Of a stretch of DNA of 64,000 nt, positions 16,949 through 54,728 are shown one piece after another. The notes beneath the pieces are model-generated. The model ran no database searches. It was not told the origin of the DNA and saw only the letters and a list, made by a program, of their open reading frames with translations. Location: positions 1-64,000 of the forward strand of contig NZ_BOLM01000001.1 of assembly GCF_016861605.1 (NCBI RefSeq), in the 5' to 3' direction. Position 1 is the first letter of the stretch; each line of letters starts with the position of its first letter. A program made the translations under genes and the position numbers. The DNA is from Levilactobacillus wangkuiensis. Its GTDB lineage: Bacteria; Bacillota; Bacilli; Lactobacillales; Lactobacillaceae.

Positions 16949-17285
16949 ACCGCTAATAGTTTGATAGAATGGACTTAACTTGGTCGTTGTCTGGCGCCTC
17001 CGGGCTGGTGAAAACCGCGCCTAGTCGCGTCCGTTCCCGCCGACGAGCTCAAGGCGCCCTGCTATGGGGTCGGTTACAGCCAAAGGACGGGCTTCCACCT
17101 CGATTTTGAGCCGAAGAGCGGTCTCAAAAGTCGCCCCGTGGACTAGGCTGGAAAAGAACTCCAGCCAAGGCCACCGACACAGCTGGGCGCCTTGGCTCGT
17201 CTCTGGTCACTTCCACGACTGGCCCAGTTTTCCCATCCCTGCGGCTGACACGGGTTAAGCCCATTATCAAACGGCTATCGGCGGT
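16949..17285 (+). repeat. Structured intergenic element, copy A
   Basis: First full copy of the family described in the findings. The closing stem pairs 17049-17066 with 17178-17195 (15 of 18 canonical pairs plus one wobble). Inside are the hairpins TTTTGAG/CTCAAAA (17104-17110, 17123-17129) and GGCTGGA/TCCAGCC (17146-17152, 17160-17166). A second stem GGGCTGGTGAAAAC/GTTTTCCCATCCC (17002-17015, 17227-17239) encloses the core. An outer inverted repeat of about 31 bp (16949-16979 with 17254-17285) bounds the unit. There is no ORF with a ribosome site. Confidence 0.85.
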
Positions 17286-17569
17286 TGGCAGTGACTGACA
17301 GAGACTGTCGTTCCCGGCGGCAGATTCAACCACCCCTGCTATGGGGCCGGTTCCAGCCGAAGGGCGGGCTTCCACCTCAACTTTGCGCCTGAGAAGCGGT
17401 CGCAAAGGTTGTCCCATGGGCTAGGCTGGAAAAGAACTCCAGCCAAGACCATCGACACAGCCGGGGTGGTTGATCTGCCTCTGGTCACTAATTCTGTCCT
17501 CGCTGGCTCATTTTCACCAGCCCTGCGGCTGACACTGGTTTAGTCCATTATCAAACGGTTATTAGCGGT
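17286..17569 (+). repeat. Structured intergenic element, copy B (tandem with A)
   Basis: It follows copy A directly and repeats its core and 3' end with a period of about 284 bases (compare 17254-17285 with 17538-17569). The closing stem pairs TCAACCACCCCTGCTATG (17326-17343) with CACAGCCGGGGTGGTTGA (17456-17473). That sequence differs from copy A but is equally complementary. The hairpin TTTGCG/CGCAAA (17382-17387, 17401-17406) is a compensated variant of TTTGAG/CTCAAA. It lacks its own left terminal repeat. The 182 bases after it, before copy C, show nothing I can identify. Confidence 0.85.
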
Positions 17570-17751
17570 GGCTGGTGGCTGTTATTGGGGTGGTTGAGTA
17601 GTTTGTCCGCGATGACTCATTCTCACCGATTTTGCCGGTAACACACAGTGGTCCGTGGTATCAGTGATTTTCAGTAATTTGTAATTGCAAAAATTAGCAA
17701 TAATGTTATGTAAATGCTAGTATTGCGGCATTCAAAGCCAGACGGATTGGC

Positions 17752-18002
17752 ATTGGTCTAGTGAAAAACGGTGGTCAATGTCAGTGACCAGAGGCGGGCC
17801 AAGGTGACCAGCTGTGTCGGTGGTCTTAGCTGAGTGATTTTCTCAGGTTAGAGCACGGGACGACCTTGGAAACTCGCGGTTTTGGCGAAGTTTCAAGGCG
17901 AGGCGGAGGACCGTTCCACAGTCCGGAGTCGTTCCCCACAGCAGGGCACTTTGAGCCCGCCGCCGGGAACGGAATCAACCCATCATTTCTCACTAGACCA
18001 AT
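17752..18002 (-). repeat. Structured intergenic element, copy C (inverted)
   Basis: Same family on the minus strand, facing A and B. The terminal inverted repeats 17752-17768 and 17986-18002 match over 17 bp with one difference, in a sequence private to this copy. The closing stem pairs 17937-17954 with 17799-17816. The middle hairpin is the long variant (GAAAC..CGC with GCG..GTTTC) in place of TTTGAG/CTCAAA. The right end lies 26 bases before the flp start codon, so the element forms part of that gene's leader or promoter region. Confidence 0.85.
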
Positions 18003-18027
18003 CGAAAAAATTTAAGGAGATGCCGAA

Positions 18028-18726
18028 ATGGTACATGAACATCATCATGAATCAATCGAACAAGAACTGGAATGTGTTTCCCAGGTGACCATTTTTCAGC
18101 GCTTGTCGGCGGATCAACTGACGTCGGTGGCTCAGGTTACCCGGCCCGTCATGGCCAAGAAGGGCGGGACGGTGTTTAGCACCGGAGAAGTTTCACAAAC
18201 TCTGTACATCGTCAATGTGGGTCAGGTACGCCTATACCATTTGGGCGAAGATGGTCGGGAACAGGTCTTGCGGGTACTGAATCCGGGCGACTTCATTGGT
18301 GAAATCGCGCTGTTTACGGATGAAATTCACAGTTCATACGCTGAAGCTACCAAGGACAGCGAGTTATGTACCATTTCGCGAGCTTCCCTGACAGCCTTGA
18401 TCAAGCAGATGCCACCGCTGTCCATGGCCTTGCTGGGGGCGCTAGCGGACCGGTTGAAGACGGCGGAACGACAGGCCACCTTGCTGGCCATTCCGGACGC
18501 GCTCCCACGGTTAGCCGGCTATTTACAAGAAATTAGCGGGCATCAGTCCGGCGTCATTGATCTACCAATGAGCAAGCAGGACCTGGCCGCTTACCTGGGC
18601 ATGACGCCAGAGTCCTTGAGCCGCAAGCTTCGGCAGCTGGTCAAGGACGGCGTGATTGAGACCATTGGTCGTCGTCAGGTCAAAGTGATCAACACGGATC
18701 AATTGGCTGAAGTGGCGCCAGAGTAA
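18028..18726 (+). CDS. flp: FNR-like protein (FLP), thiol-type Crp/Fnr regulator
   Basis: Transcription factor of 232 residues: a cNMP-like barrel, dimer helix and winged helix. Cys16 (in ECVSQVTIFQRLS) and Cys114 (SELCTIS) lie 98 apart, like the pair that forms a redox-switching disulfide in Lactobacillus casei FLP. There is no N-terminal Cys cluster, so no Fe-S centre. The recognition helix MTPESLSRKLRQL has the E..SR pattern of FNR, so its sites should differ from those of ArcR. An unusual His-rich start (MVHEHHHES) is present. ATG 18028 follows AAGGAG. Repeat copy C lies immediately upstream. Confidence 0.88.
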   Translation: MVHEHHHESIEQELECVSQVTIFQRLSADQLTSVAQVTRPVMAKKGGTVFSTGEVSQTLYIVNVGQVRLYHLGEDGREQVLRVLNPGDFIGEIALFTDEIHSSYAEATKDSELCTISRASLTALIKQMPPLSMALLGALADRLKTAERQATLLAIPDALPRLAGYLQEISGHQSGVIDLPMSKQDLAAYLGMTPESLSRKLRQLVKDGVIETIGRRQVKVINTDQLAEVAPE

Positions 18727-18787
18727 CCGGAGTTTTAGCTATCCATTAAGAATCCTTAATATTATGGTATTCCCGAAATAAATTTGC

Positions 18788-18793
18788 TAAAAT
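18788..18793 (+). promoter_or_regulatory. Probable asnB -10 box
   Basis: TAAAAT with an extended TGC and no good -35, about 80 bases before asnB. The leader contains the small hairpin TTCATT/AATGAA. Confidence 0.4.
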
Positions 18794-18872
18794 GATGGGT
18801 GTTGTGTTTCATTTAATTTTTAATGAACGACTAAATTAGGCGATAAGAATAAAGGAAAAAGGGGATACGCAC

Positions 18873-20756
18873 ATGTGTGGATTCGTTGGCTATGTGAATC
18901 AAAAAGATGTTCCGACTAATACCATCAACAGTATGGCAGATCGGATTAAGCACCGGGGGCCGGATGACGAGGCTTTCTTCCACGACGAACAAGCCGTGAT
19001 GGGTTTCCGCCGGCTGTCGATCATCGACTTAGCCCATGGTAAACAACCCATGTATAACCGGGATCAAACCAAGGTTTTGACCTTTAACGGTGAAATTTAT
19101 AACTATCAAGAAATTCGGGCCGACTTACAAAAGTTGGGTTACGAATTCCAAACTGACGTGGACTCAGAAGTCTTGATTCACGGGTACGATGCTTGGGGTC
19201 CTAAGCTGTTGGACCGCCTGCGTGGGATGTACGCCTTCGCCATTTATGACAAGACGAAGAACGAAGTCTTTGGCGCACGGGACCACTTTGGTATCAAGCC
19301 AATGTACTACTACGATGATGGCGAGACCTTCCTGTGGGCCTCTGAAATTAAGGCGTTCCTCGAACACCCTAACTTTAAGAAGGAATTCAACGAAGCCCTC
19401 TTGCCAATTCATTTGAGTTTTGAATTTATCCCATCACGGGACACGATGTTCAAGAACGTCTACAAGGTTTTGCCTGGTCAATACTTCATTCACCATGCCA
19501 ATGGCGAGACGGAAACGCACCGTTACTACAAGTTCAACTACGATCACATCGACAACAGTCAGACGGTTGAAGAGGATGCCAAGAAGATTCGCGGGATTGT
19601 TGATGAATCCGTCAAGACCCACATGATCGCCGACGTTGAGGTTGGGAGCTTCCTGTCCAGTGGGATTGATTCTTCCTACGTGTTGAACGAAGCTTCTAAA
19701 TTAAAGCCAATCCAATCCTTCTCCTTAGGGTTCAAGAATTCTAAGTACAGTGAATTGAGCTGGTCAACCGAATTTGCCAAGGAAATCAAGCAAAAGAACA
19801 CGCCACTCTACATGACTGGTGACGATTACTTTGACATTTTGCCAACGATTATGTACTACATGGATGAACCGTTATCCAACCCATCTGCCATGCAACTGTA
19901 CTACCTGTCCAAGGGGACGCGTGAATCCGTTAAGGTGGCGCTGTCTGGTGAAGGGGCCGACGAATTCTTCGGTGGCTACAACACTTACTTGGAAGCCATT
20001 CCATTCGAACGTTACCAGAAGTGGGTACCTAAGGGCATTCGGAAGATGCTGGGTGGCATCGCTGAAAAATTCCCTCGCTTCCATGGTCGGCGGTTCCTGG
20101 TCCGTGGGGCACAGCCATTGAGTGAACGCTACTACCGGGTCAACTACGTCTTCGATTACCATGACCGCAACAAGATTCTGAAGAACCCAAGCCTGAACCA
20201 AGACGCTGGGGCTTACACTAAGCATTTCTTCGATGACGTTAAGGGCCTGGATGAAATGACGCAGATGCAATACTTTGATATCAACACCTGGTTACCTTAT
20301 GACATTCTGCACAAGGCTGACCGGATGAGTATGGCAAACTCACTTGAAGTGCGGACGCCATTGGTTGATAAGGAAGTTGCGAAGTTTGCCGCCACCATGC
20401 CAGTGAAGACGCGGATTCACGCGGATGAAACCAAGGTTTCTCTGCGGACCGCTGCCGAGGCTGAGTTACCAGAACGGGTGGCTAAGAAGGAAAAGATGGG
20501 CTTCCCATCTCCAATTGCCACCTGGATCAAGACGGAACCTTACAAGTCACGGATCATCGAAGCCTTTAATTCCGACGTGGCCCACAAGTTCTTTAACACG
20601 GACGCCCTGATGGATATCTTACACGAACACATCAACGGTAAGTCTAGCATGCAAAAGATCTTCACCATCTACACGTTTATCTTATGGTACGAAGTTTACT
20701 TCCCAGAAGACACGACGGCTAAGACGGTGGACCTGGTTCGCCGCACGCAAATTTAA
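18873..20756 (+). CDS. asnB: Glutamine-dependent asparagine synthase family amidotransferase
   Basis: A 627-residue cytoplasmic enzyme with an N-terminal glutaminase domain (nucleophile Cys2 after Met removal, MCGFVGY) and a C-terminal ATP-dependent synthetase domain (PPi loop FLSSGIDSS near residue 260, later SGEGADEFFGG). Members either make asparagine or amidate peptidoglycan precursors (D-Asp to D-Asn as with AsnH, or meso-DAP). The next two genes on the strand make and attach D-aspartate, so amidation of the D-Asp bridge is the more attractive role here, though this is inference. A large hairpin and repeat copy D follow. Confidence 0.9.
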   Translation: MCGFVGYVNQKDVPTNTINSMADRIKHRGPDDEAFFHDEQAVMGFRRLSIIDLAHGKQPMYNRDQTKVLTFNGEIYNYQEIRADLQKLGYEFQTDVDSEVLIHGYDAWGPKLLDRLRGMYAFAIYDKTKNEVFGARDHFGIKPMYYYDDGETFLWASEIKAFLEHPNFKKEFNEALLPIHLSFEFIPSRDTMFKNVYKVLPGQYFIHHANGETETHRYYKFNYDHIDNSQTVEEDAKKIRGIVDESVKTHMIADVEVGSFLSSGIDSSYVLNEASKLKPIQSFSLGFKNSKYSELSWSTEFAKEIKQKNTPLYMTGDDYFDILPTIMYYMDEPLSNPSAMQLYYLSKGTRESVKVALSGEGADEFFGGYNTYLEAIPFERYQKWVPKGIRKMLGGIAEKFPRFHGRRFLVRGAQPLSERYYRVNYVFDYHDRNKILKNPSLNQDAGAYTKHFFDDVKGLDEMTQMQYFDINTWLPYDILHKADRMSMANSLEVRTPLVDKEVAKFAATMPVKTRIHADETKVSLRTAAEAELPERVAKKEKMGFPSPIATWIKTEPYKSRIIEAFNSDVAHKFFNTDALMDILHEHINGKSSMQKIFTIYTFILWYEVYFPEDTTAKTVDLVRRTQI

Positions 20757-20792
20757 TTTAAAACGGCATAGCTTTTTGGCTGGCCGATAACG

Positions 20793-20832
20793 ATCAAGGT
20801 TGCTATTGGACTCGTCCGCTAACAACCTTGAT
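20793..20832 (+). terminator. Hairpin after asnB
   Basis: ATCAAGGTTG (20793-20802) and CAACCTTGAT (20823-20832) pair perfectly with a 20 nt loop. T residues follow about 10 bases later. It is probably the asnB terminator, though not a textbook one. Confidence 0.55.
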
Positions 20833-20866
20833 TGTGTTTACTTAGCTTTTTTCTGGTCCAACGATT

Positions 20867-21112
20867 GGTGAAAATGGACCAGAACGCTGTGGGCAATTTC
20901 CGTTCCCGGCGGCGGATTCAAGGTGCCCTGCTGTGGGGTCGGTTCCAGCCGAAGGGCGGGCTTCCACCTCAACTTTGAGCCTGAAAAACGGTCTCAAAGG
21001 TTGTCCCATGGTCTAAGCTGAGTGAGAAACCTCAGCTTAGACCATCGACACAGCTGGTCACCTTGATCCGTCTCTGGTCACTGAGACTGACCACGCTTGG
21101 TCCGTTTTCACC
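20867..21112 (+). repeat. Structured intergenic element, copy D
   Basis: Single copy between asnB and the D-Asp ligase gene. The terminal arms 20867-20881 and 21098-21112 pair over 15 bp with one wobble. The closing stem pairs TCAAGGTGCCCTGCTGTG (20918-20935) with CACAGCTGGTCACCTTGA (21049-21066), 16 of 18 pairs. Hairpins are TTTGAG/CTCAAA (20974-20979, 20993-20998) and TAAGCTGAG/CTCAGCTTA (21014-21022, 21031-21039). The left arm also lies in a competing perfect 10 bp hairpin (20851-20860 with 20875-20884). The remaining bases to 21294 hold only a GGGTGTTCA/TGAACACCC hairpin. Confidence 0.87.
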
Positions 21113-21294
21113 AGCCCTCCGACTGACACCGGTTGCGGATCGGAAATCGCCTGTAACACGGGTGTTCATGGCAGTAATTGTGAACACCCGTGCTGGCTGA
21201 AATAATTATTGCCAGAAATTGTGCGATAAATAAAATAAATAGTTGAACATTTAATGAGAGATATAAGTACGTTGTGAAGGGACTTTAATTTGTT

Positions 21295-22551
21295 ATGGAA
21301 ACCAATGGAGCAAAATTCACGCCCGTTCTGCTAGGGAGCGATTTTAACGTATACGGGATGGCCCGGTCATTTTATCAGCTGTACCATGAACCCGTTCAGG
21401 CCTTTGCCAGCATTCAGTTGGCACCGACCCGCTACACCAAAGTCGTCAACCTGGAATTGATTCCAGGATTTGATGAGGACCCCGTTTGGATTGAGACCAT
21501 GCGGAAACTCAAGGAACGTTACGCGGATCATCCAGAACCCGTGATTTTGATTGGGTGTGGGGATGGTTACGCGGAACTGATCAGTAAGCACAAGGACGAA
21601 CTGGAAGACGTATTCATTTGCCCATATATCGATTACGATAAGCTGCGGCACCTGAACAACAAGGAAAACTTCTACAAGGTTTGTGACCAGTATGGCTTGC
21701 CATACCCCGCAACGCGGATCATCACCAAGGCAGACGCCACCGCATCAGAACCCGTTGAACAACCCTTTGACTACCCGGTAGCCCTGAAGCCTGCCAACAG
21801 TGTGGAATGGTTAGACGTCCACTTTGAAGGCCGGAAGAAGGCCTTTCGGATTCAGTCCGAGGCGGAATTCCGCGACATTTTACAAAAAATTTACGCTAAC
21901 GGGTACCAATCTGACCTGATTTTACAGGACTTTGTGCCCGGGGATGACAGTAACATGCGGGTGTTGAACGCCTACGTGGACCGCAACCATCACGTTAAAA
22001 TGATGTGCCTGGGCCACCCCTTACTGGAAGACCCAGCACCATCCGCGATTGGCAATTACGTGGCTATCATTCCGGAATATAACGAAACGATTTACCATAA
22101 CATTCAAAAATTCCTGGAAGCCATTGAGTTTACCGGTTACGCCAACTTTGATATGAAGTATGACGTGCGGGACCAATCCTTCAAGCTGTTTGAAATCAAT
22201 TTGCGGCAGGGCCGGAGCAGTTTCTTCGTCACCTTAAACGGCTATAACTTGGCCGATTGGGTGGTCAAGGATTACGTTCAGGACAGCTTAGCGGATGCCC
22301 CAACGGTGTACGGCAACAAGGACGAAAGCCAACATGCGCTCTGGTTAGGTGTGCCGGTCAAGGTCTTCAAGCAGTACACCCGGGAAAATGCCGACAAGGA
22401 CCGTGCGTTGAAGCTGATTGCAGCGGGCAAGTACGGCACGACCTACCGTTACGACGAGGACATGAACCTGAAGCGCTGGGCGTTGATTCAATGGATGCAA
22501 CACAACTACACGGTTAACTTTAAGAAGTATTTCGCAGAAAATAAGGGGTAA
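21295..22551 (+). CDS. D-aspartate ligase, ATP-grasp
   Basis: A 418-residue protein strongly resembling the Aslfm family (opening PVLLGSDFNVYGMARSFYQLY, then LAPTRY, IPGFD and CGDGYAEL). Such enzymes ligate D-aspartate to the side chain of L-lysine in UDP-MurNAc-pentapeptide, making the cross-bridge of Lys-D-Asp peptidoglycan. ATP-grasp blocks include VALKPANSVEW and FEINLRQGRSS near the C-terminal third. It is cytoplasmic with no signal peptide. The racemase supplying its substrate starts five bases after it. The ribosome site AAGGGA lies about 12 bases before the ATG, longer than usual. Confidence 0.9.
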   Translation: METNGAKFTPVLLGSDFNVYGMARSFYQLYHEPVQAFASIQLAPTRYTKVVNLELIPGFDEDPVWIETMRKLKERYADHPEPVILIGCGDGYAELISKHKDELEDVFICPYIDYDKLRHLNNKENFYKVCDQYGLPYPATRIITKADATASEPVEQPFDYPVALKPANSVEWLDVHFEGRKKAFRIQSEAEFRDILQKIYANGYQSDLILQDFVPGDDSNMRVLNAYVDRNHHVKMMCLGHPLLEDPAPSAIGNYVAIIPEYNETIYHNIQKFLEAIEFTGYANFDMKYDVRDQSFKLFEINLRQGRSSFFVTLNGYNLADWVVKDYVQDSLADAPTVYGNKDESQHALWLGVPVKVFKQYTRENADKDRALKLIAAGKYGTTYRYDEDMNLKRWALIQWMQHNYTVNFKKYFAENKG

Positions 22552-22556
22552 CCACC

Positions 22557-23267
22557 ATGAAAAAATTCTTTACGATTATTGGCGGTATGGGGACCATGGC
22601 AACCGAGAGTTATCTTCATTTGTTAAATGCTCGGACGCCCGCCCACGCCGATCAAGATTATTTGAATTATATTTTGGTCAACCACGCGACGGTACCGGAT
22701 CGGACGGCTTACATTTTGGATCACAGTCAGCCCAATCCGTTACCCAGTCTGCTAGACGATATTCGCCAGCAGAGTCAACTGGGCCCAGCCTTTTTCACGT
22801 TGCCATGTAACACGGCGCATTACTTTTACGATGATTTGAAGGCGGCAACCGATGTTCCCATCCTACACATGCCGTGGGAAACGGTGAATGAGATCAAGCG
22901 TAAGTACCCGAATGCCAAGCGCATTGGGATTACTGGGACGCAGGGGACCATCACTGATAAGGTCTACGAAGATGAGATTAACGCGGCTGGGTTGACGCCC
23001 GTGCTGCCAACGCCGGAAATCGAAGCGGAAACGATGACGCTGATCTACGACCACATTAAGCAAAATAATGACGTGGATGCCGATTTATTTCACCGCATTA
23101 TTCGCGAAATGATTGAAGACCAACACGCCGATGTCGTGATCCTGGGCTGCACGGAATTATCCTTGGCGCAGGAACGCGAACCGGAAAAGACCTACCCAAT
23201 CGTTGACAGCCAATCTGTTTTGGTTGACCGGACGATTGAGATGGCCTTGTCTAAGCTACGCAACTAA
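22557..23267 (+). CDS. racD: Aspartate racemase
   Basis: Cofactor-independent racemase (Asp/Glu/hydantoin family) of 236 residues. The two catalytic cysteines appear in FTLPCNTAHYF and ILGCTELSLA, and the N-terminal GGMGTMAT loop is typical. It supplies D-aspartate to the adjacent ligase, with five bases between the genes and the ribosome site at the ligase stop. The pairing of racemase and ligase makes the assignment secure. Confidence 0.93.
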   Translation: MKKFFTIIGGMGTMATESYLHLLNARTPAHADQDYLNYILVNHATVPDRTAYILDHSQPNPLPSLLDDIRQQSQLGPAFFTLPCNTAHYFYDDLKAATDVPILHMPWETVNEIKRKYPNAKRIGITGTQGTITDKVYEDEINAAGLTPVLPTPEIEAETMTLIYDHIKQNNDVDADLFHRIIREMIEDQHADVVILGCTELSLAQEREPEKTYPIVDSQSVLVDRTIEMALSKLRN

Positions 23268-23282
23268 GATTAAGCAAGTTGA

Positions 23283-23332
23283 AAAGGAATCACTCAGCTT
23301 CTCCGTATGGAGGGTGAGTGATTCCTTTTTTA
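23283..23332 (+). terminator. Bidirectional terminator
   Basis: AAAGGAATCACTCA pairs with the opposite arm ending ATTCCTTT, with a T tract to the right and A residues to the left, between converging racD and the dehydrogenase. Confidence 0.85.
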
Positions 23333-25460: not shown

Positions 25461-25468
25461 AGGTAGTT

Positions 25469-27410: not shown

Positions 27411-27481
27411 GCGGGTGTAGTTTAGTGGTAAAATTCAAGCTTCCCAAGCTTGCGTCGCGGGTCCGATTCCCGTCACCCGCT
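27411..27481 (+). tRNA. tRNA-Gly (anticodon CCC) with unusual T loop
   Basis: A full cloverleaf can be drawn: acceptor GCGGGTG/CACCCGC with discriminator T, a D arm containing AGTGGTA, anticodon stem CAAGC/GCTTG around TTCCCAA (anticodon CCC), four variable bases, and T stem GCGGG/CCCGT. The T loop reads TCCGATT instead of TTCGATT, so the normally invariant U at position 55 is C. It decodes GGG. No CCA is encoded within the gene. Confidence 0.93.
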
Positions 27482-27544: not shown

Positions 27545-27728
27545 GAAATAGTACGTTGTGGAAATCCTTTTCAGCGAGTCCGGAGTGCTGCGAGCCGGAC
27601 AAGGATCCTAGCGGAACGGAGCAATTGGTGTCATTTAAACAGAATTTTAAAGTGGACTTTAAAGTCAATCAGAGTGGTACCGCGGGTCATCTCGTCTCTT
27701 ACAATTTATTTTGTAGGGGACTTTTTTT
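27545..27728 (+). promoter_or_regulatory. Arginine T-box leader of argS2
   Basis: The stem I distal part pairs ATCCTT with AAGGAT and TCCGG with CCGGA, flanking the conserved GAG and GCTGCGAG elements (27564-27606). A specifier-like GAA-CGG-A places the arginine codon CGG at 27617-27619. The T-box TGGTACCGCG is at 27675-27684. A terminator (27694-27702 with 27713-27721, then seven T) follows. Uncharged tRNA-Arg should favour the antiterminator and switch on argS2. No clear promoter is seen between the tRNA and the leader. Confidence 0.92.
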
Positions 27729-27786
27729 ATCCCGTGAAGCGCCTGAGACTGACGATGTTTTGAGAAGAATACGAGGAGGAACTAGT

Positions 27787-29478
27787 ATGGATTACAAACA
27801 AACAGTTACCAATGCCTTAGCTACCGCGCTGGACGGCCAATTATCCGCAGAAGATATCGCGGCTAAGTTGGAACGTCCTAAGACGTCAGACAAAGGGGAC
27901 ATGGCGTTCCCAACCTTTACCTTGGCTAAGTTGTTGCACCAAGCACCCCAACAAATTGCCCAGGATTTGGCGGACAAGCTAGATAAGACGGGCTTTGAAA
28001 AGGTTGAAGTCGTGGGTCCTTACCTGAACTTCTTCTTTGATAAGAGCGCTTATAGTGAAGAAACGTTGAACACGGTCTTAACGGCCGGCGCCAGCTATGG
28101 TCAAAACGACGATGGTAACGGCGGCAATGTGCCAATCGATATGTCCTCACCTAACATTGCTAAGCCAATGTCCATGGGTCACTTGCGGTCAACGGTGATT
28201 GGAAATTCCATCGCTGAAATTTTGACCAAGAACGGCTATAACCCAATCAAGGACAATCACTTGGGTGACTGGGGAACGCAATTCGGGAAGCTCATCACGG
28301 CCTACAAGCTGTGGGGGAACGAAGAAGACGTTAAGAAAGATCCTATCAACAAACTGGTTGAATACTACGTTCGTTTCCATAAGGAAGACGTTGACAAGCC
28401 TGAACTGGACGATGAAGCCCGGGAATGGTTCAGAAAGCTTGAAAATGGCGATCCCGAAGCCCACCGTCTCTGGGACTGGTTCCGGAAGGCGTCATTGCAA
28501 GAATTCAACGACGTTTATGAAAAATTAGGGGTTACCTTTGATACCTACAATGGTGAAGCCTTCTACAACGATAAGTTAGCCGAAGTTGTTCAAATTTTGA
28601 AGGACAAGCATTTACTGGTTGAATCTCAAGGGGCCCAGGTGGTTGACCTGAGCAAGCACGACTTGAACCCAGCCCTGATCCTGAAGAGTGATGGCGCTTC
28701 CCTGTACATCACCCGGGACATTGCGACGGCTCTGTACCGTGACCGGACTTACAAGCCAGCCAAAAACTTGTACGTCGTGGGGTCCGAACAAACCTACTAC
28801 TTCAAGCAATTGAAGGCTGTCTTGCAGGAAATGGGTGTGCCATCTGCTGATGACGTTCAACACGTGCCATTTGGACTGATCACCGTTGATGGGAAGAAAC
28901 TTTCCACGCGTTCTGGTCGGATCATCTTGCTGGACAAGGTTCTCGAAGAATCTGTTAAGCTGGCCGGCGAAGAAATTAACGAAAAGAACCCTAACTTAGC
29001 TAACAAGGAAGAAGTTGCCAAGCAGGTCGGGGTTGGGGCCATCGTCTTCGGTGATTTGAAGAACGAACGGACCAACAACATTGACTTCGTGCTCGCCGAT
29101 CAATTGAAGTTTGAAGGTGAAACGGGTCCTTATGTGCAATACTCACGGGTACGGGCCGAAAGTATCTTACGTAAGGCTGGTGACGTCGCCGTTAAGGCCG
29201 ATGGCAACCAAGTTTCTGATCCAGAAGCCTGGGATACGATCAAGACTTTGGCCGACTTCCCAGCCATGGTCAAGATGGCTTGCGATGAGTTAGAGCCATC
29301 CGTCATTGCTAAATACGCGATTCGGTTAGCCAAGACCTTCAACAAGTACTACGCCCACTCCAAGATTTTAGCGGACGATGCCGGTTTGCCAGCACGTTTA
29401 GCTTTAGTCAAGGCAGTGTCAACAGTCTTGAAGGAAAGCTTACGTCTGTTAGGGGTTCAAGCACCTGACGAAATGTAA
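27787..29478 (+). CDS. argS: Arginyl-tRNA synthetase, copy 2 (T-box controlled)
   Basis: A 563-residue class I synthetase, near-identical in length and layout to copy 1 at 292-1983: the same SMGHLRST signature and KLSTRSG stretch. Differences are scattered and mostly conservative, with the largest clusters around residues 70-90 and 465-475. The ATG follows GAGGAGGA. Control by the T-box means this copy responds to the charging level of tRNA-Arg, whereas copy 1 has a plain promoter beside the ADI genes. Confidence 0.97.
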   Translation: MDYKQTVTNALATALDGQLSAEDIAAKLERPKTSDKGDMAFPTFTLAKLLHQAPQQIAQDLADKLDKTGFEKVEVVGPYLNFFFDKSAYSEETLNTVLTAGASYGQNDDGNGGNVPIDMSSPNIAKPMSMGHLRSTVIGNSIAEILTKNGYNPIKDNHLGDWGTQFGKLITAYKLWGNEEDVKKDPINKLVEYYVRFHKEDVDKPELDDEAREWFRKLENGDPEAHRLWDWFRKASLQEFNDVYEKLGVTFDTYNGEAFYNDKLAEVVQILKDKHLLVESQGAQVVDLSKHDLNPALILKSDGASLYITRDIATALYRDRTYKPAKNLYVVGSEQTYYFKQLKAVLQEMGVPSADDVQHVPFGLITVDGKKLSTRSGRIILLDKVLEESVKLAGEEINEKNPNLANKEEVAKQVGVGAIVFGDLKNERTNNIDFVLADQLKFEGETGPYVQYSRVRAESILRKAGDVAVKADGNQVSDPEAWDTIKTLADFPAMVKMACDELEPSVIAKYAIRLAKTFNKYYAHSKILADDAGLPARLALVKAVSTVLKESLRLLGVQAPDEM

Positions 29479-39720: not shown

Positions 39721-40188
39721 ATGAAAAAAAGTATTCGCCAAGCGCGCATCGAGCAACTCATCAATCAGTATCCCATTGGGACTCAAGAAGAATTAATGGA
39801 ACACCTGGAAGAGGTGGGTATTCAGGCGACTCAGGCCACCATCTCGCGGGATATCCGGGAAATGCAAATTGTTAAGGCCCAAGACGGCCACGGCCATTTG
39901 CGTTACACCATCTTCAAGGCGGGAAACCGGAGCGAAGAAGAGCATTTACGGGAAACGATTAACGAAGTCGTGACCGGCTTAACCCGGGTTGAATTCGTCA
40001 ACATTTTGAAAACGCTGCCGAGTAACGGGAACCTATTGGCGGCCATCTTTGATGATTTGAATATGCCAGAGATTGCCGGAACCCTGGCCGGGCATGATAC
40101 CATCTTCATCATCAGTCCGAACGCCGAGATTGCTGAAAAATTGCATGATGAAATCGCCGGTGAAATGAACCCAGAAATTGTGCACTAA
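39721..40188 (+). CDS. argR: Arginine repressor/activator, copy 2
   Basis: A 155-residue ArgR-family regulator, most positions identical to the copy at 11976-12449, including the DNA-binding helix region QATQATISRDIREMQIVK and GTLAGHDTIFIISP. Arginine-binding residues of the C-terminal domain appear intact in both. The start ATG 39721 follows GGGAGG. Having two close paralogues suggests either mixed hexamers or division of roles. It stands between the purine operon and the PBP gene as a single gene. Confidence 0.93.
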   Translation: MKKSIRQARIEQLINQYPIGTQEELMEHLEEVGIQATQATISRDIREMQIVKAQDGHGHLRYTIFKAGNRSEEEHLRETINEVVTGLTRVEFVNILKTLPSNGNLLAAIFDDLNMPEIAGTLAGHDTIFIISPNAEIAEKLHDEIAGEMNPEIVH

Positions 40189-47921: not shown

Positions 47922-48845
47922 TTATTTAGATGAAGCTGATGATGACGTCTTAGAACTTGAGCTAGTTGAGAGGTAGTCGGAAAGGATGTTCTTCAAGTCG
48001 TTATCCTTGATAGAAACGTTACCCTTCTTCAAGACCTTGGCAACCACGTTGTGCAGAACGGTGCTATCGTTCATGTCGTTGTCAATGATTTGCTTCTTCA
48101 ATTCAGCCTTGTGTTCGTTGATTGTGCCCTTACCAGGGTTCTTCAACATCAAGATGACGTGGTAACCGTATTGCGTCTTAACAGGCGTAGTGGTGTATTC
48201 GTCAGTTGATAACTTGAAGGCAGCCTTCTTAAAGGTTGCGTCCAGGGAAGTGTCGGTGCTATCGAAGGCACTCAACTTACCACCCTTGTTCTTAGTAGCC
48301 GTATCAGTGGAGTACTTCTTAGCTAACTTCGTGAATTCGCTAGTCAAGTTGCTCTTCTTGGTACCCTTCAAGTCACTGATAACCGTGTTGGCAGTTGACT
48401 TCTTAGATACTAAGATGTGGGCAACAGTGACCTTTGGTTGGTAACTCTTGAATTGCTTCTTGAGTTGCGCGTCACTAACCGTCACATTATCCTTAACGGC
48501 TTCCTTCAAAAGTAAGTTCGAACGGATTTCAGTCTTTAAGCTGGATTCCGTCATCCCACTTTGGGAAAGAACGCTCTTGAATGATGAACCGTATTGTGAT
48601 TTGTAGGTATTGAATTGCTTGGTAACTGCAGACTTGCTGACCTTGCTACCGTATTGCTTTTCCAAGACCTTGTTCAAAATCATTTGTTGCAAGACTTGCT
48701 TACCAGAAGAGGTACCCTTTAAACTGCTGTAGTACGCACTTTCGGTAATCTTACCACCGTTAGTGGTGGCAACGGTTTGGCTGCCGCAACCGGCCAGTGT
48801 TACAGTCAGTAACAAGCCAGCGAAGGCGATAAACCATTTCTTCAT
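47922..48845 (-). CDS. prsA: Foldase lipoprotein PrsA
   Basis: Extracytoplasmic, lipid-anchored peptidyl-prolyl isomerase that helps secreted proteins fold. The lipobox LAGC follows a [15 protein letters not shown] leader. A parvulin (PpiC) domain begins near VAHILVSKK. The C-terminus is Ser-rich. The 307 residues are counted from the ATG at 48845, but its GAGG site is only three bases away. An alternative ATG six codons upstream (48863) has no better site, so the start is uncertain. The position beside yhaM, the YhaH-like gene and hit matches other Firmicutes. Confidence 0.92.
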
Positions 48846-48957
48846 ATTCCTCAACACATCCATTCATCAAAATTGGTGCAAGCACCATACTCAAACATCA
48901 TAACACAAATAGTGGCAAACCGAAAAAGGTCGGCAAAGCTTTACAAAAAGTTCAAAA

Positions 48958-49278
48958 TTACTCGCCAGCGTGTTCATCCAAAATTTCTTGAATCGCTGAG
49001 ACCCGCGGGGCAATCTTAAACGCAAACTTATCGACGTCGGTCTGAATGTCATCCAAAACCGGCTGGGCAGCGGTCAGGGCTGCCGTTAATCCGGTTGCGC
49101 GTTGTGCCACGCGGTCCTTGGCTTGACGAATATCATCAATTTGTGCGGCCGTGTGCTGGGCTTGTTGTTTGACATTCTTGCCCCAGGTGAGGGGGGCTTG
49201 CTTCGTGAGGGTTAGGTAGGCTGCCAAACCAACGCCGACAGCGAGGGTGGTGCCCGTTAGAAAACGACCAAGTCCCAT
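48958..49278 (-). CDS. YhaH/YtxH-like membrane-anchored protein
   Basis: A 106-residue protein with one N-terminal hydrophobic segment (about 5-24) and a helical polar tail rich in Ala, Gln and Asp. Length, layout and position between hit and prsA match YhaH of Bacillus, a YtxH-domain protein of unknown role. It begins two bases after hit ends, so the two are cotranscribed. Confidence 0.75.
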   Translation of the reverse strand: MGLGRFLTGTTLAVGVGLAAYLTLTKQAPLTWGKNVKQQAQHTAAQIDDIRQAKDRVAQRATGLTAALTAAQPVLDDIQTDVDKFAFKIAPRVSAIQEILDEHAGE

Positions 49279-49280
49279 AA

Positions 49281-49739
49281 TTAACCCTCCAATTGTGCTT
49301 TGATTTTTTCTTGGATCGCAGCGTAGTCGGCGGGGGTGTAATTGCCGGAGTTGTCTTTGAAAATCATCTTGAAGTCATCCTGATCGGTGTAGCGAGGAAC
49401 CAGATGAATGTGGGAGTGGAAAACGGATTGGTAAGCCACTTTCCCATTATTGTTTAAAATGTTCATCCCGGTGATGGCAGGGTCGGAAGCCTTAACGGCG
49501 CGCGCAATCTTAGGAATCCGGGAGAAGACGGCGGCAGCGAGGTCGGCGTCGTAAGCAAAGATATCTTGAACGTGGGTCTTCGGAATCACCAACGTATGGC
49601 CGGGCGTCCCTTGCGAGATATCCAGAAATGCCTTCACGATGTTGTCTTCGTAAACCGTGTAGCTGGGGATGTCCCCGGTTAAGATTTTACAAAAGATACA
49701 GTCGTCAGCGTAGTGTGGTTCTAGGGTCATTTGATCCAT
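49281..49739 (-). CDS. hit: HIT family nucleotide hydrolase
   Basis: A 152-residue protein with CIFCKILTGDIPS at the N-terminus (zinc-type cysteines) and the histidine triad HSHIHLVPR. Family members hydrolyse nucleoside phosphoramidates or dinucleoside polyphosphates. The start at 49739 follows AAGGAG; the frame continues upstream without a ribosome site. It is divergent from ecsA across a kilobase of structured repeats. Confidence 0.92.
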   Translation of the reverse strand: MDQMTLEPHYADDCIFCKILTGDIPSYTVYEDNIVKAFLDISQGTPGHTLVIPKTHVQDIFAYDADLAAAVFSRIPKIARAVKASDPAITGMNILNNNGKVAYQSVFHSHIHLVPRYTDQDDFKMIFKDNSGNYTPADYAAIQEKIKAQLEG

Positions 49740-49821
49740 GAAAACTCCTTCTTTCACTTCGATTTCCCTCATTATACACCATTGCTCCGGGGACCCCAAC
49801 CAACGATACAAGCGTGGACCC

Positions 49822-49957
49822 GGTCCGGACAGGCCAACTCCACCTGCGTCAGTTCAGACCCGCCCCCCTATGGGGACCGACCGAAGCCAAGAATCGGTCT
49901 TCGGTCTTGCTTTTGAGCCTGAGGATCGGTCTCAAAAGACATCCCGTGCTGTAAGCC
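49822..49957 (+). repeat. Truncated structured element, fragment E0
   Basis: A 136-base tandem duplicate of the 5' part of copy E: the left terminal repeat (49822-49838), the left closing-stem arm (49855-49872) and the TTTTGAG/CTCAAAA hairpin. It stops before the second hairpin, so it has no partner arm of its own. The right arm of copy E could pair with either. Confidence 0.85.
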
Positions 49958-50173
49958 GCTCCGGACAGGTCAACTCCACCTGCGTCAGTTCAGACCCGCC
50001 CCCCTGTGGGGACCGACCGAAGCCAAAGAGCGGTCTTCGGTCTTGCTTTTGAGCCTGAGGTCCGGTCTCAAAAGGCATCCCGTGCTGTAAGCCTGAGAAA
50101 ATGCTCAGACTAACACCACCGACACAGGGGGGACGGGTCTGACTGCCTCCGGCTCCGTTGACCTGTCCGGAGC
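49958..50173 (+). repeat. Structured intergenic element, copy E
   Basis: Bounded by a perfect 17 bp inverted repeat, GCTCCGGACAGGTCAAC (49958-49974) and its complement (50157-50173). The closing stem pairs CAGACCCGCCCCCCTGTG (49991-50008) with 50123-50141, all 18 positions with one bulged A. Its outer half is unlike that of any other copy. Both internal hairpins are present. The 308 bases before copy H show no ORF and nothing I can name. Confidence 0.88.
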
Positions 50174-50481
50174 TGACACTGGTGTCGTTTGGGGTATCTG
50201 AGAGTGGTGTATATATGGTCGAGATGTGCTATGACCGCTGAGTGACAGAGCGTTAGTGATTACTTTTGCAACGAAGCGGGACAGTTCGCCAGATGAAATC
50301 GGTTCGTCGGTGTCTAGTTTTTTGGTCTACTTTAGTAGAGAAGCAGTAGGATCAAACGGCTGCTCCCACCTCAAGTAGGACAACGTAAAGTGGTGAAGAC
50401 AATTATCGTTAATTAAGGTAGAGGTGCATATCAAACAGAAACTGACCGATTATCCCATCCGTGGCCGGGGTTTACGCCCAC

Positions 50482-50823
50482 CTTGTTGGCGGGGTGGGAC
50501 CTAGCCCTTGACCTTGACCCTAAGCTCCAAGCCAAAAGAAAGGGCAACGCACAATCAGAGCCGGAGGAAGCCAGGTACGGAGACGGCTGTGTCGGTGGTG
50601 TTGGCTGAGGGTCTTTCTCAGCCTACAGCACGGGACGACTTTGGAAACTCGCGACCCTAAGCGAGGTTTCAAAGCGAGGTGCAGGACCGCTCCTCAGGCC
50701 GGAACCGTTCCCCACAGCAGGCGTAGTACCTGGAAGCCGCAGGCGGCCAATGTCAGGTGTCCTTAATCTTTTGACTTTAAGGGCTAAAGGGCTAAGGGTC
50801 TTAGGGCCCCACCCGCCAACAAG
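50482..50823 (-). repeat. Structured intergenic element, copy H (inverted)
   Basis: Minus-strand copy facing E. The terminal arms 50482-50498 and 50807-50823 pair over CTTGTTGGCGGG and beyond. The closing stem pairs 50713-50733 with 50571-50591; the outer 8 bp CCAGGTAC/GTACCTGG and the inner GCTGTG/CACAGC are perfect, with mismatches between. The middle hairpin is the long GAAAC/GTTTC variant as in copies C and F. It ends 29 bases before the -10 of ecsA. Confidence 0.85.
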
Positions 50824-50851
50824 ATAAAAGCAACCCTAAGGCCACGTATGG

Positions 50852-50857
50852 TATAAT
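50852..50857 (+). promoter_or_regulatory. ecsA promoter -10
   Basis: TATAAT with an extended TGG, 37 bases before the start codon, placed just outside repeat copy H. No good -35 is visible, so the edge of the element replaces whatever lay there. Confidence 0.6.
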
Positions 50858-50893
50858 AGGGCGGTTAATTCAAAGGAAATGAAGGGATGCATA

Positions 50894-51628
50894 ATGGCAC
50901 TAGAAGTCAGCCATGTCGTGGGTGGTTACTCACAAATTCCCGTCTTAAAAGATATCAGTTTTGACGTTAAAGACGGTGAATTAGTTGGGCTCATTGGATT
51001 GAACGGGGCCGGGAAGTCGACCACGATTAATCACGTGATTGGCCTACTGACCCCCCACAAAGGGAAAATCAGTCTGAACGGTGTGACTATCGATCAGGAT
51101 AGCCAAGCCTACAAACAACAGATTGCTTATATTCCCGAAACGCCGGTGCTCTATCAGGAGCTCACGTTGCGAGAACATTTGGAAATGACCATGATGGCCT
51201 ATGATCTGGACCAGGAGAAGGCCTGGGTCACGGCCCATGAATTGTTAAAGACGTTCCGTTTAGACAACAAGCTTGACTGGTTCCCCGCCAACTTTTCCAA
51301 GGGGATGAAGCAAAAGGTCATGATCGTCTGTGCCTTTTTGACCCAAGCCAAGCTGTTTATCATTGACGAACCCTTCCTGGGCCTGGATCCACTGGCCGTC
51401 AATGACCTCTTAAACTTAATCGAAGCCCGTAAGAAGACCGGGGCCAGCATCCTGATGTCGACCCACGTGTTGGACACGGCCCAACGGTACTGTGACCGCT
51501 TCGTGCTCTTGCACGATGGCCAGGTCAAGACCGAAGGCACCCTCAGTGAATTGCAAGCCGCTCTTCCGGAAGCGGGGGAATCGCTGAATGATATTTACCT
51601 GTCGATGACCAAGGTCGACCGCGCATGA
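50894..51628 (+). CDS. ecsA: ABC transporter ATPase EcsA
   Basis: A 244-residue ATPase with Walker A GLNGAGKST, a signature-like FSKGMKQK and Walker B LFIIDEPFLGLD. With EcsB it forms the Ecs exporter-like complex, linked in Firmicutes to protein secretion and intramembrane proteolysis. I start at ATG 50894, seven bases after AAGGGA, and not 50879. The stop overlaps ecsB (ATGA). Confidence 0.92.
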   Translation: MALEVSHVVGGYSQIPVLKDISFDVKDGELVGLIGLNGAGKSTTINHVIGLLTPHKGKISLNGVTIDQDSQAYKQQIAYIPETPVLYQELTLREHLEMTMMAYDLDQEKAWVTAHELLKTFRLDNKLDWFPANFSKGMKQKVMIVCAFLTQAKLFIIDEPFLGLDPLAVNDLLNLIEARKKTGASILMSTHVLDTAQRYCDRFVLLHDGQVKTEGTLSELQAALPEAGESLNDIYLSMTKVDRA

Positions 51629-52851
51629 AAGATTTATTCAAGAACCGGCTACAGCGCCATCTCCGGGAAATGGCCAAGTATTTGCGGCTGGTGTTCAATG
51701 ATTTCTTCGTCTTTGCGTTATTATTCTTCATGGGTGGCCTGGGATTGGGCTACTCCAACATTTTAAAATCGTTAAAGCCGGGCCTGTGGTGGGCGCCACT
51801 GGTTGCCTTACTGGTGCTGGTCATCGTGGCTCAGATTGGTCGGTTCGCAACCTTGATTGAGGATGCCGACCGCGTCTTTCTCCTGCCAAAGGAGCGGGCG
51901 ATGCACGATTACTTCGTGGCCGCGCGGCGCTACAGCCAGTTTCTGGCGCAGTGTACGCAGGTCATCACGCTGTTCATTCTGGCACCATTTTTGAGCGTGG
52001 CCCTGCACTGGACCGTGGCTAAGATTCTGATCCTGGCGGTGGCTCAAATCGTCTTGAAGGATAGCCTCCTTCGGTTGGACCTGGCCAGTGCCTACCAGGT
52101 GACCGGGCAACGCCGGATGAACCAGTGGGGATTCAAGTGGCTCCTGGCCATCGTCGTGATTGCCAGCGGCCTGTGGGTCACGCCTTACGTGGCCTTGGCG
52201 CTGGCGCTCGTCGCTGATGGGGCAGTTGCCGTTTGGTTCCAACAACACTGGCAAAAGCAACAGATTCGTTGGCGCGAGCAGATCAAGCTCGAAGACAACC
52301 GGATGCTGGGCATTTACCGCTTCTTCAATCTCTTTACGGAGGTGCCCATGGTTTCGGGCACCATCAAGCGGCGGCGTTACCTGGACTGGCTGTTTACCGG
52401 GATCAAACCCAAGCATAGTCAAACGTACCTGTATCTGTTTAGCCGCGGGATGGTCCGGGGCACCGATTTCAGTGGGTTGGTCGTTCGCCTGACGGTTATC
52501 GGCATGCTCCTGCTGTACTTCGTGCGCGGGCAGTGGTTGCCCGTCTTCCTGGCGGCTCTGTTCATCTACCTGATTGGCTTCCAGCTTCTGCCATTCTTCC
52601 AGCAATACGACGACGTGGTCTTCACGCACGTCTATCCCATCCTGCCAGAGTTTCGGCTCAAGAGTTTCGTCAAATTGGTCACGCTGATTCTCAGCACGGC
52701 GGCGCTCCTATTGTGGGTGGTTGTCGTGATTGCCAATCGGGAGTTAGAAACGGCGGGGATCACCCTGCTGGTCGAGGCCGTCGAAGTTTGGTATCTTGCT
52801 AGAATCTACACGCCGCAACGGTTAGCGCGCGCCGATAAAAATAAGGCTTGA
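51625..52851 (+). CDS. ecsB: ABC transporter permease EcsB
   Basis: A 408-residue polytopic membrane protein with hydrophobic segments around residues 28-48, 54-75, 105-140, 170-200, 285-330 and 345-390. It is the membrane partner of EcsA, with the start codon inside the ecsA stop. EcsC is not present next to it. Confidence 0.88.
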   Translation: MKDLFKNRLQRHLREMAKYLRLVFNDFFVFALLFFMGGLGLGYSNILKSLKPGLWWAPLVALLVLVIVAQIGRFATLIEDADRVFLLPKERAMHDYFVAARRYSQFLAQCTQVITLFILAPFLSVALHWTVAKILILAVAQIVLKDSLLRLDLASAYQVTGQRRMNQWGFKWLLAIVVIASGLWVTPYVALALALVADGAVAVWFQQHWQKQQIRWREQIKLEDNRMLGIYRFFNLFTEVPMVSGTIKRRRYLDWLFTGIKPKHSQTYLYLFSRGMVRGTDFSGLVVRLTVIGMLLLYFVRGQWLPVFLAALFIYLIGFQLLPFFQQYDDVVFTHVYPILPEFRLKSFVKLVTLILSTAALLLWVVVVIANRELETAGITLLVEAVEVWYLARIYTPQRLARADKNKA

Positions 52852-52912
52852 CGTGGCCGCCATTTCCCCATAGAATTAATAATAGCTGACAAATCGAGGA
52901 GGGGTGGCACGC

Positions 52913-53704
52913 ATGGCACTAGATATTAGTGACGGCTGGAGTCTGTATCCGCTGGGCGGTAATACGGGCACGGCGTACATGGGAACCAAGGCGTCACAAA
53001 AGGTGTTCTTAAAACAAAACGCGTCACCGTTTCTAGCGGCTCTCTCCATGGAGGGCATTACGCCGCGGCTCGTCTGGACCAAACGTTTGGCCACCGGCGA
53101 CGTCATGACGGCCCAGGAATGGTTAAACGGCCGAACGTTACGGCGCAGTGAAATGCGTGAAGAGCGGGTCGCCCGCTTGCTTCACCGGGTCCATCATTCC
53201 CATCTGCTTCATGATATGTTATTAAAAGTCGGCGGACGATTTACCACGCCCGCCCAGTTGTTAACTCGCTTACAGCCAGCCTTAGCCGCTGACCTGCGCC
53301 AACATCCGCTGATCCAATCAGCCTTTGCGACCTTGCAAAACGAGCAACCGCAACTGCCCAAGACGCATTATGAAGTTTGTCATGGTGATTTGAATCATAA
53401 GAACTGGTTGTTATCCGACCGCCAACGGCTTTACCTGGTGGATTGGGACGCAGCCACGTTCGCTGACCCCGCCTTCGACCTGGGCGCACTGCTCTGTGAG
53501 TACGTGCCCCTGGAAGAGTGGCAACGCTGGTTACAGGATTACGGCGAGACGACAACGCCGGACCTGACCGCACGGGTCAACTGGTATGCGCGGGTGCACT
53601 GCTTGAGCGTTATCGCGGAGAGCTTCCACCAGCAGCGTTTTCAAATCATGAATCAACATTTAATTTTACTCGAAAAGCTGACGTGTGAGTCAGTAACTGA
53701 TTAA
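52913..53704 (+). CDS. Choline/aminoglycoside kinase-like protein (YtmP-type)
   Basis: A 263-residue protein of the protein-kinase-like APH fold. The catalytic loop is CHGDLNHKNWLL and the metal motif LVDWDAATFADPAFDLG. Its place before trmB matches ytmP-ytmQ in Bacillus. The substrate is unknown; thiamine, choline or a sugar are possibilities. I use ATG 52913, nine bases after GAGGAGGGG, and not the GTG at 52904. Confidence 0.82.
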   Translation: MALDISDGWSLYPLGGNTGTAYMGTKASQKVFLKQNASPFLAALSMEGITPRLVWTKRLATGDVMTAQEWLNGRTLRRSEMREERVARLLHRVHHSHLLHDMLLKVGGRFTTPAQLLTRLQPALAADLRQHPLIQSAFATLQNEQPQLPKTHYEVCHGDLNHKNWLLSDRQRLYLVDWDAATFADPAFDLGALLCEYVPLEEWQRWLQDYGETTTPDLTARVNWYARVHCLSVIAESFHQQRFQIMNQHLILLEKLTCESVTD

Positions 53705-53711
53705 ATAACGT

Positions 53712-53744
53712 CGGCGGGAGCGGGGACAAACCTCGCGCCCGCCG
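53712..53744 (+). promoter_or_regulatory. GC-rich hairpin before trmB
   Basis: CGGCGGGAGCG and CGCGCCCGCCG pair over 11 positions with one mismatch and an 11 nt loop. There is no T tract, and it ends ten bases before the trmB ribosome site. It may be a processing or attenuating structure. Confidence 0.5.
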
Positions 53745-53769
53745 TTGTGCTAACAAGGAGGATTTTATA

Positions 53770-54417
53770 GTGCGTGTACGTAATAAACCGTGGGCCAAGG
53801 ACTATGTGGCCGAACACACCGAACGATTGGTGAGCGAACCAGAACCCTTGAAGGGCAACTGGCAGAGTCGCTTCCCCAAGAACCAACCCTTATTTGTTGA
53901 AATTGGGACCGGGAAGGGGCAGTTCATCGTTGAAATGGCCAAGGCCCATCCCGACCACAACTTTATTGGCATCGAAATTCAATTTTCTGTGATTGCGGCC
54001 GCTCTGAAAAAGGTCGTGGCCAGTGAATTGACGAACATCCAATTGGTACACACGGATGGTGAAGCCATCAACACCTTCTTCGCCGCTGGGGAAGTTGCGG
54101 GGCTGTACCTGAACTTCTCTGACCCATGGCCTAAGACGCGTCATGAGAAGCGTCGGTTAACATCACCGGTCTTCTTGGCCCATTACGCCGACGTCCTTCA
54201 GCCAGAAGGGTCCGTTCAGTTCAAGACCGATAACCGCGGCTTATTTGAATATTCCTTAGGGAGCTTGAATAACTTCGGCATGGTCTTCGACGGCGTCTGG
54301 CTCGATTTGCATGCCGCGACTGATGACGTGGAAGATATTCAGACGGAGTACGAGCAAAAGTTTTCGGCTAAGGGGCCTATTTACCAAGTCATCGCCCATT
54401 TTCCAGCTAAGGACTAA
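53770..54417 (+). CDS. trmB: tRNA (guanine-N7-)-methyltransferase
   Basis: A 215-residue SAM-dependent enzyme that makes m7G46 in tRNA. VEIGTGKGQFIVEMA is the SAM motif, and FSDPWPKTRHEKRRL is the family signature. It starts at GTG 53770 behind AAGGAGGA. Confidence 0.94.
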   Translation: MRVRNKPWAKDYVAEHTERLVSEPEPLKGNWQSRFPKNQPLFVEIGTGKGQFIVEMAKAHPDHNFIGIEIQFSVIAAALKKVVASELTNIQLVHTDGEAINTFFAAGEVAGLYLNFSDPWPKTRHEKRRLTSPVFLAHYADVLQPEGSVQFKTDNRGLFEYSLGSLNNFGMVFDGVWLDLHAATDDVEDIQTEYEQKFSAKGPIYQVIAHFPAKD

Positions 54418-54428
54418 TCGTTAAGAAT

Positions 54429-54728
54429 AGTGAAATATACATTGGTTTTGCTGTTCCCGCCGGTGGGCTCAAGGTGGCCTGCTATGGGGTCCGACTCCAG
54501 CCTGAGCTAGTCATGCGTTCCCGGCGGCGGGTTCAACCTGCTCTGTTGTGGGGAGCGGTCCCAGCCTGAGAGGCGGTCTGGGGCCTCGCCTTGAAACCTC
54601 GCTGTGAATCGCGAGTTTCCAAGGTCGTCCCGTGATCTAAGCTGAGAAAAACACTCAGCTAACATCACTGACACAGCTGACCAGGTTGACCCGCCTCTGG
54701 TCGCTTAGACTGGTTAGGTGCGTTTTCA
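54429..54728 (+). repeat. Structured intergenic element, copy F with 5' fragment F0
   Basis: The core pairs TCAACCTGCTCTGTTGTG (54533-54550) with CACAGCTGACCAGGTTGA (54672-54689), 16 of 18 positions. The middle hairpin is the long GAAACCTCGC/GCGAGTTTC type, and the last is TAAGCTGAG/CTCAGCTAA. About 55 bases of a second 5' half (F0, 54450-54506) precede it. The ends show only AGTGAAA (54429) and TTTCACT (54722-54728) as a possible outer repeat. Confidence 0.82.

Follow-up and report, generated by a model that had tools for sequence, protein, structure and literature searches.

A dispersed three-hairpin palindromic repeat of Levilactobacillus, polarised towards genes and possibly shaped by hairpin template switching

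BOX elements, found between genes in the low-GC Gram-positive Streptococcus pneumoniae, are structured repeats with a modular make-up, and extragenic palindromic repeats as a kind are already known; by what means palindromic repeats in bacteria originate, multiply and stay paired without a transposase is an old question. According to the passages covered of PMC2267715, ERIC (IRU) is 127 bp and YPAL 169 bp long, and the element reported here resembles both in being an extragenic imperfect palindrome of 100-200 nt with many copies. It is also similar to REP, BIME and REPIN sequences, which in the covered parts of PMC3733652, PMC2817692 and PMC3116915 amount to hundreds of extragenic palindromes per genome, and to the imperfect, enzyme-recognised DNA hairpins of IS200/IS605-type elements (PMC6006769, in part). 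Template switching at quasipalindromes makes reverse-complement copies and repairs stem pairing, as set out in the portions covered of PMC8794818 and PMC7202029.

The window, a stretch of 64,000 nucleotides of Levilactobacillus wangkuiensis, had been described in a preliminary description as holding seven copies and two fragments of a structured intergenic element. Two covariance models were used, R1 for the 181-nt type-1 core (33 sequences, including five window copies) and R2 for a shorter core (72 sequences, none taken from the window). R1 matched the window seven times at 88-214 bits, apart from faint shadows on the opposite strand that did not exceed 23 bits, and R2 eight times, with E-values (rough, in a 464 kb search) of 6e-10 to 1.6e-4; since R2 contains no window sequences, its eight matches are an independent confirmation. 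The seven copies named earlier were recovered by both models, F0 stayed a 5' fragment, and E0, matched by R2, counts as a near-complete apex. The window total, by R2, is eight copies and one fragment across four intergenic regions, with the following features:

16935-17027 (+): 5' flank of copy A, pairing with the 3' flanks of A and B (scores 70 and 75, against shuffle maxima of 37 and 32)
17033-17211 (+): copy A, type-1 core, R1 192 bits; R2 match 17061-17183 (+)
17216-17299 (+): 3' flank of copy A, an inverted copy of 16935-17027
17310-17489 (+): copy B, type-1 core stacked behind A, R1 202 bits; R2 match 17338-17461 (+)
17511-17581 (+): 3' flank of copy B, whose partner is the 5' flank of A
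17783-17970 (-): copy C, type-1 core whose hairpin 2 is longer, R1 161 bits; R2 match 17811-17942 (-)
17980-18048 (-): 5' flank of copy C, extending to the start of the gene at 18028; pairs with 17700-17774 (score 42 against a shuffle maximum of 36)
20902-21082 (+): copy D, type-1 core, R1 214 bits, fold z -8.3; R2 match 20930-21054 (+)
20866-21113 (+): copy D plus flanks, of which 20866-20900 pairs with 21083-21113 (score 33 against a shuffle maximum of 35; p 0.006, marginal)
49867-49969 (+): copy E0, near-complete apex, R2 46 bits
50003-50128 (+): copy E, apex, R2 58 bits; R1 88 bits, match 49982-50148
49770-50217 (+): E region plus flanks, of which 49770-49866 pairs with 50130-50217 (score 73 against a shuffle maximum of 40)
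50586-50718 (-): copy F, apex, R2 47 bits; R1 91 bits, match 50559-50744
50440-50866 (-): inverted repeat of about 140 nt around copy F, 50726-50866 with 50440-50578; score 97, shuffle maximum 32
54453-54491 (+): F0, 5' fragment, direct repeat family D7
54517-54705 (+): copy H, type-1 core whose hairpin 2 is longer, R1 142 bits; R2 match 54545-54677 (+)

The element is a dispersed non-coding imperfect palindrome, in which a basal stem bears three apical hairpins. In the 181-nt type-1 core the basal stem is GTTCCCGGCGGCGG..CTCTGGTCACT, followed by the three hairpins, while in type 2, of about 120 nt, three hairpins are enclosed by GCTGTGGG..CCCACGGC; R2 also recognises type-1 copies internally, thus both types share the apex. 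By eye, hairpins 1 and 2 have in common AGCC..GGTCT with an unpaired T, hairpin 3 in many copies has CTAAG in each of its sides and an A.A mismatch, and a copy from another genus, Lactiplantibacillus, displays the identical plan. Folding z-scores were -8.3 for copy D and -7.7, -3.8 and -8.4 for the copies L090, L105 and L128, respectively. The ordered parts, the hairpins and the occurrence on both strands agree with the preliminary description, which did not include the type-2 core, the inverted flanks specific to each locus or the polarity relative to genes. Its end of the element at CTCTGGTCAC did not hold, as for copies A, C, D, E and F pairing continues 30-150 nt beyond that point, in flanks specific to the locus. 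Past CTCTGGTCAC, copy B pairs with the 5' flank of A, its own immediate 5' flank giving no pairing with its 3' flank (score 16), and no flank pairing was found for copy H (score 23, p 0.20). The inverted repeat of F includes, by eye, a TATAAT at 50852-50857, in a promoter-like region before the gene at 50879. Copy E0 originated as a 136-nt tandem duplication, the direct repeat being 93% alike.

A covariance-model scan for copies outside the window had been set as a test beforehand, and it found many, both in the same genome and in other Lactobacillaceae. BLAST with copy D gave 43 places, including itself, in the window's own genome (G000, 3.14 Mb, 56 contigs). A search with its pgsA points to Levilactobacillus, with L. 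mulengensis (99%) and L. lanxiensis (98%) as best matches. R1 was applied to 150 of the 1650 first-look candidates in this genome, and every one matched with E 6e-38 or better, which puts the number of type-1 copies there at 150 or more; by R2, the 122 candidates scored out of 1212 all matched at E 1e-4. Within the genus Levilactobacillus 22 of 24 genomes were positive with R1 and 23 of 29 with R2, one or the other model matching 27 of the 29 sampled (negative: G015 and G021). There are subfamilies, for which high scores were restricted to close species. R1 found nothing in 16 genomes of other families of the order, and R2, under strict filters, was positive in 21 of 151 genomes and 9 of 40 genera of the family. 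Named loci outside Levilactobacillus gave an R2 match in 5 cases out of 50, among them Lactiplantibacillus xiangfangensis, fabifermentans, mudanjiangensis and herbarum. Neither plasmid records (queried with copy D and one type-2 copy) nor phage records (copy D) gave a match, in searches which short ends would escape. That no named family fits, as stated earlier, was borne out by a comparison with Rfam 15, in which no family reached its gathering score and nothing rose above noise (best 26.4 bits against a threshold of 100); among the matches listed from open PMC papers there was no published account of this family.

To describe the position of the copies we used a 464 kb sample picked for its richness in type-1 matches, which contained 97 R1 matches of at least 141 bits and 44 R2 (type-2) matches of at least 80 bits. 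Gene calls were hexamer-based (405 genes), and 136 of the 141 copies had a neighbour on both sides. In only 6 of these 136 does the overlap with a predicted gene exceed 20 nt, in line with the between-gene location noted before. The 5' side was the one nearer to a gene in 122 of the 136 (p 1e-22), with a median distance of 73 nt against 472 nt on the 3' side, and the same was seen for copies alone in their gap (69 of 80), in other Levilactobacillus species (28 of 32, from 35 matches) and for type 2 in G019, G020 and G042 (28 of 31, from 33); in Lactiplantibacillus the proportion of 5 in 7 (from 10) was not significant. These p-values are optimistic, because some sites are orthologous. Growth of the 3' flank would itself add to the asymmetry of the distances. 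Where a gap holds several copies, they were all on one strand in only 4 of 25 cases, and opposed copies occur in the window too, in the gap before 18028 (A and B against C) and in that before 50879 (E against F). The top-scoring loci had suggested a 3'-UTR element, an idea dropped since 72 of 136 copies lie downstream of a co-directional gene against an expected 45% (p 0.07), which is near expectation.

The flanks pair with their own partners. In a set of 33 copies own flank pairs scored 40.4 against 23.9 for crossed ones, and the own pair ranked first in 14. Another test took as the 5' part the last 60 nt of the upstream frame, for 42 of 97 copies: own pairs scored 21.1 and crosses 17.0 (permutation p 5e-5), with 13 of the 42 exceeding the 95th percentile of crosses, and the direct-repeat control gave 17.4 against 16.7. 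When copies were divided by type and neighbour, all four classes were significant at 0-60 nt and three at 60-130 nt, the fourth having p 0.885. Direct-repeat controls were raised beside gene starts (20.2 vs 15.7) and for type 2 at 60-130 nt (23.1 vs 17.9), indicating that tandem repeats contribute to the flank signal there. The 3' flank often contains a decayed inverted copy of the gene's edge. At galT, a locus which illustrates rather than tests the point, having been chosen for its high score, element-bearing loci of four related genomes scored 42-46 and two further ones 18 and 19, while 22 loci counted as empty scored 16-29 with no comparable inverted copy; here L198 was labelled element-bearing by eye and the rest by R2, and L197, apparently a third type, was counted as empty. 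The inverted gene end was weak at dacA (24.2 vs 19.7, p 0.009) and was not found at the pgsA locus; pooling galT, dacA and pgsA gave 26.2 (n = 19) against 20.6 (n = 60), p 0.02.

Turnover was studied in a 40 kb region common to G000, G020 and G042, which holds 18 G000 copies, one of them of only 19 bits. An element was present at 16 of the 18 sites in G020 and at 15 in G042, the strand being the same in every case. Four sites (6840, 17643, 20392 and 30564) have a lone type-1 core in G000 and a lone type-2 core in one or both of the others, and at 9033, 28571 and 35051/35265 an extra copy distinguishes the genomes. The galT element is likewise type 1 in G000 and type 2 in G020, G042 and G019, within related arms. 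Between close species, place and strand are thus mostly kept and the core type is exchanged at 4 of the 18 sites, and of the orthologous sites some are occupied and some empty. The earlier wording "mobile or amplified" fits the subfamilies of close species, the occupied and empty orthologous sites and the in-place exchange of cores. Relic halves lie behind full copies; orphan halves numbered 23 (3') and 11 (5'), and those reaching their own end 15 (3') and 5 (5'), by reading of the listing and with orthologous sites included. When the flank behind a relic was compared to that behind the full copy, 7 of 9 comparisons gave scores of 86-192 and the remaining two gave 25 and 27. Most cases can therefore be accounted for by a tandem duplication of the 3' part, and a displacement model, in which old elements would be pushed aside by new ones, was set aside. 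Copy E0 of the window is a 5' duplication.

Covariation of the kind expected from a structured RNA family was found beyond controls. In type 2, both partners had changed in 24 of 33 pairs, which none of 500 shuffles reached; the cells numbered 363 against 101 in shuffles, and the score was 0.408 against at most 0.096 when slid. In type 1 the corresponding figures were 22 of 59 pairs and 92 cells against 22.5, and one of five measures, the number of pair types, is weak, since 11 of 500 shuffles attain it. All of this applies to structures derived from the same alignments and to copies related to each other. The variable pairs switch from A-T to G-C with few G-U intermediates: type 1 had 316 alternative Watson-Crick cells, 5 G-U and 21 A-C (14 pairs, 97 copies), and type 2 had 334, 10 and 41, respectively (13 pairs, 72 sequences), the A-C excess being confined to a few pairs of related copies. 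A transcript read from this strand should tolerate G-U. The opposite strand folds slightly better (p 6e-4 and 0.013). Three type-1 core pairs, G-T in most copies, were excluded from the variable-pair count; with all core pairs included there were 297 G-U against 67 A-C, and in the outer arms 195 against 116, a lean that could mean RNA on this strand. The scarcity of G-U at variable pairs tips the balance there towards correction at the DNA level, and the conserved G-T pairs leave room for an RNA.

We propose, with a probability of a little under one half, that this is a BIME/ERIC-like repeat family which has been moulded mainly as DNA, by ectopic copying and by template switching at hairpins. 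A nascent strand in which the core has already been copied would fold back onto its own 5' arm and be extended by copying outwards, so that the gene's edge would be repeated in inverted form 3' of the core. By this same mechanism the arms would be extended and corrected and so remain complementary, and copies would convert one another through shared arms, so that type-1 and type-2 cores are exchanged in place. The creation and repair of hairpins by template switching is published (PMC8794818, in the part covered). This DNA-level reading is favoured by the covariation, the scarcity of G-U at variable pairs, the excess of own over crossed flank scores, the polarity and the core exchange. We counted against it the G-U lean of the whole core and outer arms, the restriction of the A-C excess to a few pairs of related copies, the null class at 60-130 nt, the raised direct-repeat controls, and an inverted gene end which is clear at galT, weak at dacA and absent at pgsA. 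In its boldest form, a transposase-free family whose 3' core end self-primes on its own 5' side, writes the inverted gene edge, and owes both spread and pairing to template switching alone, the proposal appears rather improbable to us.

The copy number, the subfamilies, the occupied and empty sites and the fixed polarity would also be produced by a MITE-like non-autonomous transposon, a unit moved by a trans-acting transposase with a preference for gene edges and for one orientation. Such a unit leaves unexplained the locus-specific inverted flanks and the exchange of cores within related arms, and the plasmid and phage searches, which short ends would escape, found no transposase-bearing element; we consider it an unlikely but serious contender. 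A similarly small chance is given to a functional RNA, be it a leader, a small RNA or the 3' end of an mRNA, with selection on its fold reflected in the compensatory changes. The strong covariation, the conserved loops and G-T pairs on this strand and the plan repeated in another genus speak for it. Against it, G-U is not favoured at variable pairs, sites and cores turn over, and the near-expected proportions of copies after and before genes (72 of 136 vs 45%, p 0.07) mean that no single transcript class fits.

Two other explanations carry very little weight. Cores may have been inserted into the loops of pre-existing hairpins, for instance terminators, the paired flanks then being older than the element; at L012, L015 and L018 paired flanks do enclose cores that have no common outer arms. 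Against this, paired flanks extend into coding sequence and into a promoter-like region, and the 22 galT loci scored as empty stay at 16-29 compared with 42-46 in four filled ones, which makes the idea highly improbable. If, as in REP-like repeats, a REP-associated tyrosine transposase (RAYT) had mobilised the family, the extragenic hairpins with unpaired bases and the hundreds of copies would fit. Y1_Tnp occurs in 21 of the 29 genomes of the genus, yet it had no match in G000, which is 99.99% complete, nor in G002, despite 115 R2 matches there; RAYT was accordingly rejected as the driver and its role is largely contradicted, a slim prospect unless the enzyme was lost after the spread. A reverse transcriptase was rejected as well, RVT_1 being present in 7 of 29 genomes and absent from the copy-rich G042, G019 and G001.

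Hairpin template switching can be tested directly in this family, thanks to its numerous copies, its close sister genomes, its strong polarity, and inverted flanks that are specific to the locus and decayed. In food bacteria the family remodels many genes at their ends and in their promoters. It also carries a warning, namely that arm correction at the DNA level can mimic the compensatory evolution of an RNA.

Set beside the described systems, the Levilactobacillus element has three apical hairpins, two core types and locus-specific flanks, whereas ERIC, in the passages covered of PMC2267715, is a single long stem-loop, of about 127 bp. REPs are 20-40 bp long (PMC3733652, in part), in contrast to cores of about 120 and 181 nt here, and no RAYT (Y1_Tnp) accompanies the latter in their genome. 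IS200/IS605-type elements differ in their enzyme, of which G000 has none, and the Levilactobacillus element carries no gene. BOX is set apart by other parts and another length. Quasipalindrome template switching is a mutation process which the passages covered of PMC8794818 and PMC7202029 do not describe as shaping dispersed bacterial repeats that copy gene edges. Compared with the open PMC papers listed, what is apparently new in the Levilactobacillus element is the combination of an apex that branches, a polarity relative to genes, gene edges copied in inverted form and cores exchanged in place.

By eye, a third core type with different arms appears to be present at galT (loci L197 and L199) and at dacA (L234 and L238), the genomes carrying it being G018, G002 and G041. 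R2, the covariance model built from 72 sequences of the shorter, type-2 core, scores just 42-45 bits at L199 (galT) and L234 (dacA).

Scans of the Levilactobacillus genomes with R2 and with R1, the type-1 model, found copies to be scarce or absent in G004, G005, G012, G013, G015 and G021; these six provide a natural contrast set for host factors that permit the element to spread.

The window also holds an isolated tRNA gene and paralogous gene pairs, two of which show a separation of 27.5 kb:

292-1983 and 27556-29478, paralogous gene pair, stretches within 71-81% alike
11977-12276 and 39722-40021, paralogous gene pair, stretches within 71-81% alike
27411-27481, tRNA-Gly(CCC) gene, isolated

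Directly 3' of pgsA, the interval that the element occupies in other species contains, at L091, L096 and L097, what resembles a CRISPR array, made up of GTATTCCCCACAGGTGTGGGGGTGATCC-like tandem repeats and spacers.
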